DNA of 41,224 nucleotides from Bacillota bacterium. Its GTDB lineage: Bacteria > Bacillota > Sulfobacillia > Sulfobacillales > Sulfobacillaceae. The first letter of the stretch is position 1, and every line of letters starts with the position of its first letter. Below are positions 1,649 to 5,569 of the stretch, one piece after another. The notes under the pieces are model-generated. The model was given only the letters and a program-made list of their open reading frames with translations, did no database searches and was not told the DNA's origin. The DNA lies in the NCBI GenBank assembly GCA_021798975.1, contig JAJZBJ010000009.1, positions 1-41,224 of the forward strand. The letters are read 5' to 3'. The position numbers were made by a program, and so were the translations under genes.

Positions 1649-2197
1649 TTGGCCAACGATTATGTCACGGTGCTGATCACGATGGCGATGGCTTATCAGA
1701 TTAGCGGGCCGCGCTGGGATGGGCGATTGCGCCCGGCTCTTGAAGCCGTGGCGGTCGGCCTTGTCGGCTTGGGCGTCGTGCTGCTCTTGCCGGCCTTAAG
1801 TTTTGATGGCCTGCGGCTGGGATGGAGCGTTAGCGGGATTATACTGTGCGCCTATGCGGCTCGATCGGTGGCGAGCGGACGCACCGATCGGGCTGCATGG
1901 CTCAGCGTGTTGGATGGAGCCGGCGCGTGGGCGGCGCTGGTCTTGTCCGGCGCCAGCCCCTTAGCCGTGGCCGCCGGGGCTCTTGCCGGCGGCGTTCTGC
2001 CACTGGCGATCGGCCCCTGGCCGGTCGTTCTCAAGCGGTTTATTGAGCCCTTGGAAGTGGTGCTGATGGGGGCGGTCGGCCTGCGGGTGTTGGGCCAAGC
2101 CGCCCTAGGCCCTGAGATGGAATCGTGGCCGCTGCTCGTGTTCTCGCTGCCGTGGTTGGTTATTTGGGATTGGCGCGCCGCCGCGCGAACAGCATAA
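1649..2197 (+). CDS. Hypothetical polytopic membrane protein
   Basis: A 182-residue protein starting at TTG 1649, 12 bp after the GH18-like gene and preceded by AGGGGGA. Most of the chain is hydrophobic, with about five or six predicted membrane segments (around residues 5-16, 32-50, 58-72, 88-105, 108-125 and 160-175). I recognise no family. The close spacing suggests co-transcription with the GH18-like gene. Its last 38 bp overlap the end of dedA on the other strand, so the two convergent genes share sequence with no room for a terminator between them. Confidence 0.6.
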   Translation: MANDYVTVLITMAMAYQISGPRWDGRLRPALEAVAVGLVGLGVVLLLPALSFDGLRLGWSVSGIILCAYAARSVASGRTDRAAWLSVLDGAGAWAALVLSGASPLAVAAGALAGGVLPLAIGPWPVVLKRFIEPLEVVLMGAVGLRVLGQAALGPEMESWPLLVFSLPWLVIWDWRAAARTA

Positions 2198-2750
2198 TGA
2201 TCCAGATAATGAACAGTACCAGCACCGCGCCGAGGAAATAGTGGGTCCACCCGCCCAAGTGCTTCCAACCAGGTCCGAAACTATAGCCGAGATAGGTGAA
2301 GAGCACGGTCCACGGCAAAGCGCCCAGCAGGGTGAACAGGATGAAGCGCCCAAACGGCATGTCGGCAATGCCCGCCGGGAGGGAGATGTAGGTCCGAATG
2401 CCGGGCAACAGTCGCCCGAAAAAAACCGCGCCGTCGCCGTGGCGCTGGAACCACGCGTCAGCCCGATCAATTTCATGGCTGCGGACGCCAATATAGCGCC
2501 CATAGCGCTCCACCAGAGGCCGTCCACCGAAGCGTGCCAAGAGATACCCGATTACCGCTCCGACCAATCCGCCTGCTAGGCCGGCCGCCATGGCCTCGAT
2601 GAGCGAGGTGCGCCCCGTATAGGCCAAATATCCCGCATACGGCAGGATGAGCTCGGACGGTACGGGAATGTAGCAGCTCTCTAAGACCATGCCAATAAAG
2701 ATTCCAAAGACCCCCAGGGCCAAGATGGCCTGGGTTGCGTGTGTCAGCAT
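2160..2750 (-). CDS. DedA/SNARE-associated family membrane protein
   Basis: A 196-residue integral membrane protein of the DedA (VTT domain) family. Diagnostic stretches are ESCYIPVPSELILPYAGYLA near residue 24 and the re-entrant FFGRLLPGIRTYISLPAG near residue 110, with a conserved GxLPW-like segment further on. DedA/VTT proteins are linked to flipping of lipid carriers such as undecaprenyl phosphate and C55 lipids across the membrane, which fits an operon headed by a peptidoglycan carboxypeptidase. The start codon shares its A with the upstream stop (TAATG), so translation is likely coupled. It is the last gene of a four-gene minus-strand operon. Confidence 0.9.
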   Translation of the reverse strand: MLTHATQAILALGVFGIFIGMVLESCYIPVPSELILPYAGYLAYTGRTSLIEAMAAGLAGGLVGAVIGYLLARFGGRPLVERYGRYIGVRSHEIDRADAWFQRHGDGAVFFGRLLPGIRTYISLPAGIADMPFGRFILFTLLGALPWTVLFTYLGYSFGPGWKHLGGWTHYFLGAVLVLFIIWIIMLFARRRANPK

Positions 2751-3754
2751 TAATGATCCCCCTCAGCGCCATACAGCGCAGTTAGAAAGTCGGTTGGCGG
2801 CATGGGATGCTCAGCCCGATAGCGTTCTTGGTACCACGCCAGCCGATCTAGGGAAATGACCCCAGAAATGAGTTCTTCACCCACAGACAAGTGCGACTCG
2901 GCTAGGACCCCGGAACCATCGTCGGTCAGGGGTGCAGGCAAATAGATGCCCGCTTTGCCTGTCAAATGCAAGCCAAATAGGCGTCCTGTGGCAGCCGAGA
3001 CCACACCCACCATGGGAACGTCTTGGACACGGGAAAAACAACCGCGCCGGGCCTTGCCCGCCGTATAGCGCGCATCCGCGTCGGCGATGGGGACGACCGC
3101 GATGCGGGCGCCTTGGGAGGCAATGAGCCGAAAGCTCTCGGGATACGTAGCATCGTTGCATACCAATGTCGTCAGGCCCCACGGACTCAGCGGCGCGGAT
3201 GGCGGGCTGTCGGCCTGCGCGACGCCCCAACGGATCTCTTCCGGGGTCAAATGCCATTTGCCCTGGCGGACGCGTTCCTGCCCCTGGCTGTCGAAGATGA
3301 TACCGGTGTTGACTAATCGGCCCCGGTCCCAGGTCAGGGCCGATCCGGCCGCGGTGACCAGGTGATATTGCCGGCTTAGCGACGACATCCAGCGGTACCA
3401 AAAACGAAAGGACGGCGGGGCCAGGGCCCCCAGCACCTCCCGGATGGTGGCGTCGGTCAGGGTATGGGCGCTGGTGCGCTCCGGCATGACCACGCCCAGC
3501 AACGACAACGGCATGTATTCGGGAAACGCCAGGAGGTGACAATGGGTGTCGGCCGCCTCTTCGAAGAACCGGGTGACGCGGCGACTCCAATCCTCCACCG
3601 CTCCGACCGGTTCGGCGTTCCACTGGACCGTCGCAATTTTTACCCGGTCGAGCGGGAAGGTGACAGGGACAGCGTTGCCCGGCGCGGGCGGGGTTGTGCG
3701 GCCCAGTTTCGCGCCCAGCCAGAAGCGCAGCAATCCGCGTGACAGCGGGTTCAT
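2750..3754 (-). CDS. Carbon-nitrogen hydrolase (nitrilase superfamily)
   Basis: A 334-residue protein. The ATG at 3754 is used because it overlaps the stop of the upstream gene by 4 nt (ATGA); a longer frame exists but runs inside that neighbour. The Glu-Lys-Cys catalytic triad of the superfamily is present: E79 in LLAFPEY, K166 in GKWHLTPEE and C199 in LVCNDATYPESF. These enzymes hydrolyse amides or nitriles, or transfer acyl groups, through the cysteine. The substrate is not evident. It sits directly after an inactive-looking paralog and downstream of dacF, so a role in cell-wall or amide metabolism is an inference from position only. Confidence 0.85.
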   Translation of the reverse strand: MNPLSRGLLRFWLGAKLGRTTPPAPGNAVPVTFPLDRVKIATVQWNAEPVGAVEDWSRRVTRFFEEAADTHCHLLAFPEYMPLSLLGVVMPERTSAHTLTDATIREVLGALAPPSFRFWYRWMSSLSRQYHLVTAAGSALTWDRGRLVNTGIIFDSQGQERVRQGKWHLTPEEIRWGVAQADSPPSAPLSPWGLTTLVCNDATYPESFRLIASQGARIAVVPIADADARYTAGKARRGCFSRVQDVPMVGVVSAATGRLFGLHLTGKAGIYLPAPLTDDGSGVLAESHLSVGEELISGVISLDRLAWYQERYRAEHPMPPTDFLTALYGAEGDH

Positions 3755-4365
3755 GAGTGCCACCACCCATTCTCCCGGTAGAAGGACATGCGCAGCCCAG
3801 GCAGTACTGGCAGCAGGCGCCGTGCGTCCGCCAGTTCCTCGAAGCGGAGGGTGGCGCGCCATCCTCCGGGTTCGGCCGCCAGCGGCATGCTGCCCTCCTG
3901 GGCCGGGTCGATTTCGCAGGGCAGGTACAGCACTGGCTCGGCGCCGAGAGCCAATCCAAACACTTGGTTAGCCTGGGCGGCGCGCCAGAGTGGATCCAGC
4001 GCCGGGTCTCCGACAGAGGTTGACCGCGACCCGATCATGAGTTCGACACCGGCTAGGGCCAGGGCGCGCGGCACCTCGGGAATTTGATAGAGAGCCGGCG
4101 TCAGCCAGGCCACGAAACGGTGGTTAAACCGCCAGATTTTTCCGCCCCCTAGGGCAAAGTCCGTGCCGGGCCAGAGATCGGGACGCGGTTCGAAGCCTGT
4201 CAGGACGCTGGCGGGGTTCCCTGCCAGCAAGTGCGTCTCCGCCCAGCCCGCCCAAGTTCGCATCTGGGTTTCCGAGGGAAGGTCCGCGGTCTCCCAAATG
4301 GTGAGATCATATCCGGCCGCCGGTGGAGGCAATTCCGCGCCCCGCACTACCCACAGCTCAGCCAC
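3751..4365 (-). CDS. Degenerate nitrilase-like protein lacking the catalytic Cys
   Basis: A 204-residue protein starting at GTG 4365 behind GGGAGGAGG and overlapping the dacF stop by 8 nt. Residues about 93-135 align by eye with the nitrilase core: YQIPEVPRALALAGVELMI resembles the usual CYDxxFPExxRxLAxxGAE block, and WRAAQANQVFGLALG resembles the RARAxENQxF block. The position of the nucleophilic Cys is occupied by Pro90, and no clear Glu or Lys partner is seen. It is also much shorter than an ordinary family member. I read it as a catalytically dead paralog, translated with the active enzyme next to it, and perhaps its partner subunit or a sensor. This is an eye alignment only. Confidence 0.6.
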   Translation of the reverse strand: MAELWVVRGAELPPPAAGYDLTIWETADLPSETQMRTWAGWAETHLLAGNPASVLTGFEPRPDLWPGTDFALGGGKIWRFNHRFVAWLTPALYQIPEVPRALALAGVELMIGSRSTSVGDPALDPLWRAAQANQVFGLALGAEPVLYLPCEIDPAQEGSMPLAAEPGGWRATLRFEELADARRLLPVLPGLRMSFYRENGWWHS

Positions 4366-5569
4366 GATTCACGCCTCCTCCCAATCGACGCCGCCCGGCG
4401 TTGGGCCCCAGGCGGCGCGTCCCAATCCCCAGGGAAGCGGCCACCGCGACCGGCAGTAACAGCCAGGCCCAGTTCCACCGAAGCGGGGGAGGCAAGGGCG
4501 CCACGGCCCTGGCCGCACGCACCGGCACCTGGGCCACGAGGTGCCGATTCACGGTAATCTCCGCTTCCCCAATCGTTTCATGCTGGCGAATGGGACGGTT
4601 GCTATGCGGGGTGAGGGCCGCCAACTGGACACCAATCTCTGGATGCGCGGTTTTCTCGACGGTATAGGTCAGGCCTTGAGCCGACCGGACCGGCACCCGC
4701 CGGCCGCCCACATCGAGCGTCCCCAGTCTCTGCCCTCTTGTGACCAGCGTCAACGGCCGGAAGTTTCGAAAACCCCATGAAAGCAAGTTCTGCGCGTCCG
4801 GCCAGAGTCCTGCTGGCGTGTCCTTCAGAAGCACTTCGATGAGGAGCAAGTGGTGGCGCCGCGCTGCCCCCACAATGGTTTCATCTGCTTCAATGGTGTA
4901 ACCGATTTTGATGCCGACAGCGCCTGGGAAATTGTATAGCAGCTGGTTCTGGTTATAGTACACACGCGGGGTGGGATCGGGCGGCAGGGTGGATTCCTTG
5001 GTGGACACAATCCGCCGGAATACCGGGTTCTGCATGGCATGTTCGGCAATAACGGCCATACCTAGAGCACTTACCACGTGCTTGGGATCCGGCAGCCCGT
5101 TGGGGTTGTCAAAATGGATGCCCGGAGCACCCCAAATTCGTGCTTGGCGATTCATCATACGGACGAAGTTCGGCACCGTTCCGCCCACGGTTTGGGCAAT
5201 GGCGTAGGCGGCATCGTTGCCCGACACCAGCATCATGGCGGTGACGACTTTGGGCATGGGCAGTGACTGACCGGCCCGCAGATAGGCGCTGGATCCGATT
5301 TGGTCTTGGGCTTGGACTGAGACGTGTACGGTGTCGTGCCAACCGTGGGTGATAGCCAGATAGGCTGTCATAATCTTCGTGATAGAGGCCGGATAGAACT
5401 CCCCGCGGATATTTCGTGCATAGAGTATCTGCCCGGTGCTGCCATTGACGAGAATAGCAGCGTGAGCAGACAGAGCTGGCGCGCGGTGAGCCCAGACCGG
5501 GGGGGTCAAGGTAGAGACAAACACCATGGCCGCGGCCGACAAAAGCGCCTCTTTCCAGCGATGAATCAC
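4358..5569 (-). CDS. dacF: D-alanyl-D-alanine carboxypeptidase (PBP5/DacF type)
   Basis: A 403-residue low-molecular-weight penicillin-binding protein. GTG 5569 follows GGAGGAG. There is a signal segment (residues about 8-26), then the three catalytic motifs of peptidase family S11: SITK (S62-K65), SGN (116-118) and KIG (221-223). The last is usually KTG. A beta-rich C-terminal domain follows, then a membrane anchor at about residues 368-388 and an Arg/Gly tail. It trims the terminal D-Ala of peptidoglycan stem peptides at the outer face of the membrane. The name dacF is by resemblance to the sporulation paralog; dacA/dacB cannot be excluded. It heads a four-gene operon with its own promoter. 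Confidence 0.88.
   Translation of the reverse strand: MIHRWKEALLSAAAMVFVSTLTPPVWAHRAPALSAHAAILVNGSTGQILYARNIRGEFYPASITKIMTAYLAITHGWHDTVHVSVQAQDQIGSSAYLRAGQSLPMPKVVTAMMLVSGNDAAYAIAQTVGGTVPNFVRMMNRQARIWGAPGIHFDNPNGLPDPKHVVSALGMAVIAEHAMQNPVFRRIVSTKESTLPPDPTPRVYYNQNQLLYNFPGAVGIKIGYTIEADETIVGAARRHHLLLIEVLLKDTPAGLWPDAQNLLSWGFRNFRPLTLVTRGQRLGTLDVGGRRVPVRSAQGLTYTVEKTAHPEIGVQLAALTPHSNRPIRQHETIGEAEITVNRHLVAQVPVRAARAVAPLPPPLRWNWAWLLLPVAVAASLGIGTRRLGPNAGRRRLGGGVNRG

Follow-up and report, generated by a model that had tools for sequence, protein, structure and literature searches.

The window, a stretch of 41,224 nucleotides from a member of the Sulfobacillaceae (contig JAJZBJ010000009.1), carries four overlapping genes on the minus strand across positions 2160-5569. 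These encode a DacF-like carboxypeptidase, two proteins that we refer to as P0002 and P0001, and a DedA-family protein, and their features are as follows:

4358..5569, minus strand: dacF-like D-Ala-D-Ala carboxypeptidase gene, which heads the gene run; 8 nt overlap with P0002
3751..4365, minus strand: P0002, shortened dead partner with a predicted nitrilase fold; 204 aa, GTG start
4098-4096, minus strand: Pro90 codon of P0002, which occupies the catalytic-Cys position
3751..3754, minus strand: ATGA overlap of P0002 stop and P0001 start; 4 nt, translational coupling
2750..3754, minus strand: P0001, active-looking nitrilase-superfamily protein; 334 aa, ATG at 3754
3520-3518, 3259-3257, 3238-3236 and 3160-3158, minus strand: P0001 catalytic codons for E79, K166, E173 and C199, respectively
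2160..2750, minus strand: DedA-family membrane protein gene, DedA identity by sequence; 1 nt overlap with the end of P0001

An earlier note on this DNA had both nitrilase genes overlapping their neighbours, which these coordinates bear out (8, 4 and 1 nt). We took the ATG at 3754 as the start of P0001; an in-frame start further upstream, at 3862, falls within P0002. The top NCBIfam matches of the dacF-like product are D-Ala-D-Ala carboxypeptidases, with scores under their cut-offs. On the plus strand, two genes (557-1636 and 1649-2197) converge on dedA and stay beside it in most loci of the family; a Pfam scan of the latter gave no significant match.

P0001 belongs to the CN_hydrolase family (PF00795), which it matches in Pfam with 45.4 bits versus a cut-off of 23.2, and is remote from every named NCBIfam group, with bits far below all cut-offs. 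Its Glu-Lys-Glu-Cys tetrad (E79, K166, E173 and C199), three residues of which had been picked out in the earlier note (E79, K166 and C199), is invariant across 16 orthologues in genomes of the family. The corresponding catalytic residues of beta-ureidopropionase are C233, E119, K196 and E207 (PMC10741476). Because the tetrad is present, P0001 is expected to carry out hydrolysis by the usual mechanism, via a covalent Cys. An identity as apolipoprotein N-acyltransferase (Lnt) was dropped, as the NCBIfam Lnt family model matches neither P0001 nor P0002 up to an E-value of 10. Ahead of its nitrilase core, P0001 has an N-terminal extension (residues 1-36) that is predicted to be helical at 3-18. 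Active partners class-wide carry such an extension too, and many elsewhere show a W-R-S-R-P-like motif in it; a docking or membrane-touching element is possible.

The homology of P0002 to nitrilases emerged only through profiles and intermediates. As a single sequence, P0002 matched no Pfam family up to an E-value of 10, and NCBIfam and PDB searches were also without match; among its 16 orthologues, one matched CN_hydrolase in Pfam (E 0.01). Direct similarity between P0002 and P0001 is weak (hhalign probability 93 over 93 columns). A profile of the 16 orthologues, searched against the PDB, had nitrilases as its top matches; these are weak (E 0.015), and the P-E motif that follows the catalytic Cys falls in register. 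The P0002 profile also retrieves the full-length partners in other families with E-values of 1e-12 to 1e-21, and a full-length dead relative, the one that was scanned, itself belongs to PF00795. The fold model of P0002 (pLDDT 87.7, pTM 0.85), compared with the PDB, gave nitrilase superfamily members as all 50 matches listed, the best at E 5e-9. Profile search, fold model and intermediate homologues all speak against the possibility, raised in the earlier note as a test of its own claim, that the 204-residue protein is not related to nitrilases. P0002 is, judging from model and alignments, a protein with a shortened alpha-beta-beta-alpha nitrilase fold that lacks the catalytic Glu, Lys and Cys. 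Specifically, the catalytic Cys of nitrilases corresponds in P0002 to Pro90, six residues ahead of the conserved P96-E97 and just where the note had placed it, and the Glu and Lys positions are also lost. The gene is indeed shortened, with 204 aa versus about 280-300 aa in full-length orthologues of other families. The Nesterenkonia amidase 3hkx and Pyrococcus PH0642 1j31 (both PF00795) have the fold common to P0001 and P0002 and a tetrad like that of P0001, but are entered as single proteins with their own catalytic residues, whereas here a dead paralogue is kept beside an active one.

Both members of the pair appear to be under purifying selection, with dN/dS of 0.07 for P0002, 0.05 for P0001 and 0.09 for dacF (window versus its closest relative, rough values as dS is near saturation), and 16 residues of P0002 are invariant across the family. 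Within the family, P0002-like and P0001-like genes are adjacent in 16 of 34 genomes; the same 16 have both, and neither is ever found alone. One locus (L020, G027:C143:1-177) adds a second P0002-like gene, partial and located where a contig begins; a complete pair is present in that genome too.

Searches of 154 genomes of the class and 399 of the phylum showed that the active partner recurs well beyond the family, with matches of >270 bits in 71 of the 399 phylum genomes, representing 36 families. In all 60 loci that were read (L084-L103 and L114-L153), a dead-type gene is the immediate 5' neighbour of the active gene or is fused to it; for L084-L087 it was detected with the dead-partner model. 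Among 20 further loci, 12 are new independent full-family loci, all with the pair, while L156, L157 and L166 run into contig ends and were therefore counted neither way, L168 duplicates L138, and L162-L164 (about 190 bits) represent a separate nitrilase branch without a partner that was left out of the counts. The order in the loci read is invariably dead then active, and this pair is present at each full-family locus examined, across about 40 families, other than those truncated by a contig edge. The concern that the pair might lack conservation is answered by its retention far beyond the genus of the window and in many families, and it is near certain that the pair is real and conserved. Spread by plasmids was considered and rejected: four plasmids carry only distant nitrilases, with <36% identity in the best places.

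To score catalytic residues, 72 active and 68 dead copies were aligned to the active-partner model. The full tetrad is present in 71 of the 72 active copies. Among the dead copies, by comparison, not one of 68 holds even two of the Glu, Lys and Cys (the Glu position being unaligned in 30). The Lys position is occupied by Gln in 65 of 68 and the Cys position by Gly in 48, with Cys kept in nine, while the Asp of the C-x-D motif is retained in every copy. The recurrence of the Lys-to-Gln and Cys-to-Gly replacements, together with the retained Asp, indicates a fixed signature and not random decay. In a tree of 44 dead copies, 44 active copies and 16 other nitrilases (quick search), the dead copies form one clade (SH-aLRT 96) and the active copies another (85), with longer branches for the dead copies than for the active ones. 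Dead partners from beyond Sulfobacillales are full length, at about 280-300 aa; Sulfobacillales copies, which form one clade (support 96), have lost most of the N-terminal half and are about 190-222 aa long.

A P-C-E motif, at residues 149-151 of P0002, occurs class-wide in dead partners and is absent from active ones, with its P-C invariant in 16 of 16 family copies. The exception among the aligned active copies, L098 (G076), reads Asp-Lys-Glu-Thr, and L165 (G475), one of the 20 further loci, has a pair in which both members lack catalytic residues, the second reading Ala-Lys-Glu-Ser; these two complexes perhaps have a non-catalytic role. Selenocysteine at the Cys position was also considered and rejected, as the TGA codons in flagged matches were, in all those examined, at gene ends or upstream of the start.

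The two partners are also tightly coupled. Among 46 unfused two-gene pairs, 18 show the -4 overlap and in 39 the two genes are no more than 20 nt apart, and the dead and active partners occur as one ORF in four lineages (L096; L099; L118, L121, L122 and L124; L145), always with the dead part first. Fusions, ATGA overlaps and invariant order strongly imply a physical heteromer. Moreover, the two genes have remained together in many families of a single phylum, which makes it very probable that the live partner is aided or controlled by the dead one. We therefore consider it likely that P0001 and P0002 constitute an obligate enzyme-pseudoenzyme heteromer of the nitrilase superfamily, the physical complex being deduced from gene arrangement, alignments and models.

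We hypothesize that an ancient duplication of the nitrilase fold gave rise to the P0002 lineage, in which catalysis was lost. P0002 retains two helices, P-E-x-x-R and W-R-x-x-Q-x-N-Q, as well as R-x-x-x-Y at the C-terminal end. It would very likely dock on P0001, replacing the second subunit of a nitrilase homodimer, and once docked may stabilise, gate or regulate the P0001 active site. P0001, in turn, would hydrolyse a C-N bond, most likely that of a small-metabolite carboxamide, through a covalent Cys thioester. Both the docking surface and the activation of P0001 by P0002 are what we infer. In the dead partner, the two helices that follow the Cys position rank with the best-conserved columns, and we take them, from general knowledge of the superfamily, to belong to the A-interface. 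Conserved in this way, they fit a P0002-P0001 heterodimer over that surface, as nitrilase superfamily members dimerise across the A-interface (PMC6637149). The same conservation could also stem from the fold rather than from an interface.

Heteromers of this general type have precedents. In Poaceae, nitrilase activity depends on a heteromer of the two paralogues NIT4A and NIT4B (PMC3537687). The likeness lies in a nitrilase heteromer of two paralogues, deduced here from the genes; NIT4A and NIT4B, however, are isoforms of one NIT4 enzyme of plant branch-1, whereas the dead partner here is an ancient phylum-wide lineage with fixed replacements and gene fusions. Similarly, the trypanosome prozymes of AdoMetDC (PMC5201418) and deoxyhypusine synthase (PMC3663545) are dead paralogues required for the activity of an active partner. 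These are unrelated protist enzymes in which activation is proven, while in our case dead and active paralogues are kept together and activation is deduced.

The genomic context outside Sulfobacillales suggests a setting in which such a heteromer may act. A GH125-like gene (PF06824) lies near 24 of the 60 pair loci and an MFS_2 sugar transporter gene near about 19, and a PIG-L deacetylase gene is found at 4 loci. Across the 399 genomes, 50 have both the GH125-like gene and the pair, 21 the pair only, 9 the GH125-like gene only and 319 neither (p 2.7e-37, kinship ignored), and the reverse strand of L129 encodes a 973-aa ORF in which an active nitrilase is fused to a GH125-like protein, with the dead partner just upstream. 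This recurrent neighbour shares the C-terminal region of the GH125 alpha-mannosidase family, but at about 600-700 aa it has an N-terminal part outside the Pfam match, and we regard it as a putative glycosidase. A tentative reading, which we hold at somewhat less than even odds, is that the system breaks down imported sugar conjugates: the MFS_2 symporter would import the conjugate, the GH125-like enzyme would remove an alpha-linked sugar, and the nitrilase pair would cut an amide of the aglycone or amino sugar, with Sulfobacillales retaining the amidase step alone. Such a pathway refines the heteromer proposed above and is not exclusive of it. The ancestral setting may well have been of this kind; in Sulfobacillales the pair is placed between dacF and dedA, with no glycosidase beside it and the dead subunit down to about 200 aa. 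Against a universal pathway link, no GH125-like protein was found in the genome of the window (assembly 87% complete), its genus or most of its family, and lineages other than those with the GH125-like gene have a hotdog thioesterase gene near the pair instead (14 of 60 loci).

A more speculative proposal, and a rather doubtful one, is that the dead subunit is an allosteric sensor. Its old active site would have been remade as a conserved ligand pocket, in which Lys gave way to Gln, Cys to Gly and Glu to either Ala or Gly while the Asp stayed, such that the nitrilase is on only with a pathway metabolite bound; in Sulfobacillales the pocket would later have disappeared, leaving a minimal scaffold for activation.

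The immediate surroundings of the pair in the window could suggest another substrate, an amide of peptidoglycan or of a carrier lipid that the pair, the neighbouring carboxypeptidase and the DedA protein would process together, with P0002 helping P0001. In the window both of these flanking genes overlap the pair. Most Sulfobacillales loci examined have dacF ahead of the pair and nearly all have dedA behind it, and dacF-like genes are also near the pair in L116, L151 and L152. In one Sulfobacillaceae genus, however, dacF is replaced directly upstream by a gene for a 172-aa regulator with HTH_11 and 3H domains (L052:4743-5261 and L055:4848-5366, domains scanned in L055), and it is missing in L084 and L085 of a sister genus. 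Moreover, dedA is not adjacent elsewhere, the linked genes outside Sulfobacillales are GH125-like and MFS_2, and neither protein matches Lnt, so that we consider this explanation improbable. The earlier note had joined an active/dead paralogue pair to a cell-wall or lipid-linked substrate, and proposed looking for the same pair beside dacF in other genomes: the coupled paralogues stand, both as nitrilase relatives and as a pair recovered in many families, while the substrate is poorly supported, given the inconstancy of dacF even within this family. A nicotinamide or NAD role, hinted at by the 3H-domain regulator, was dropped as it concerns two loci only. In L151 and L152, the dacF-like gene and spmA- and spmB-like genes (identified by eye) follow a few genes downstream of the pair, hinting at sporulation in those lineages.

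Two further explanations fare worse. P0001 and P0002 could act separately in one pathway, with P0002 as a stand-alone binding protein, and the non-random changes of the dead pocket at its Lys and C-x-D positions and its own P-C-E motif are compatible with this; fusions in four lineages, ATGA overlaps, fixed order and zero solo occurrence make it very unlikely. That P0002 is a decaying gene, a chance or misread ORF without function, as its shortened length, lost catalytic residues and want of a Pfam match of its own might suggest, is refuted by purifying selection, invariant family residues, a confident nitrilase fold and conservation of the pair over many families.

Activation of a live paralogue by a pseudoenzyme partner is best known from eukaryotes, and our search of the literature for a nitrilase pseudoenzyme or a link between GH125 and nitrilases found none. 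As a bacterial case that extends across a phylum, in forms ranging from split or overlapping genes to fusions and shrunken copies, the pair would offer a natural series for what a dead subunit must retain. The heteromer would also supply a role for a nitrilase clade and for a GH125-like family, both left unnamed by curated models. If the dead subunit does act as an allosteric sensor, the pair would represent a kind of enzyme-pseudoenzyme system not yet described in the nitrilase superfamily, spread across a bacterial phylum.
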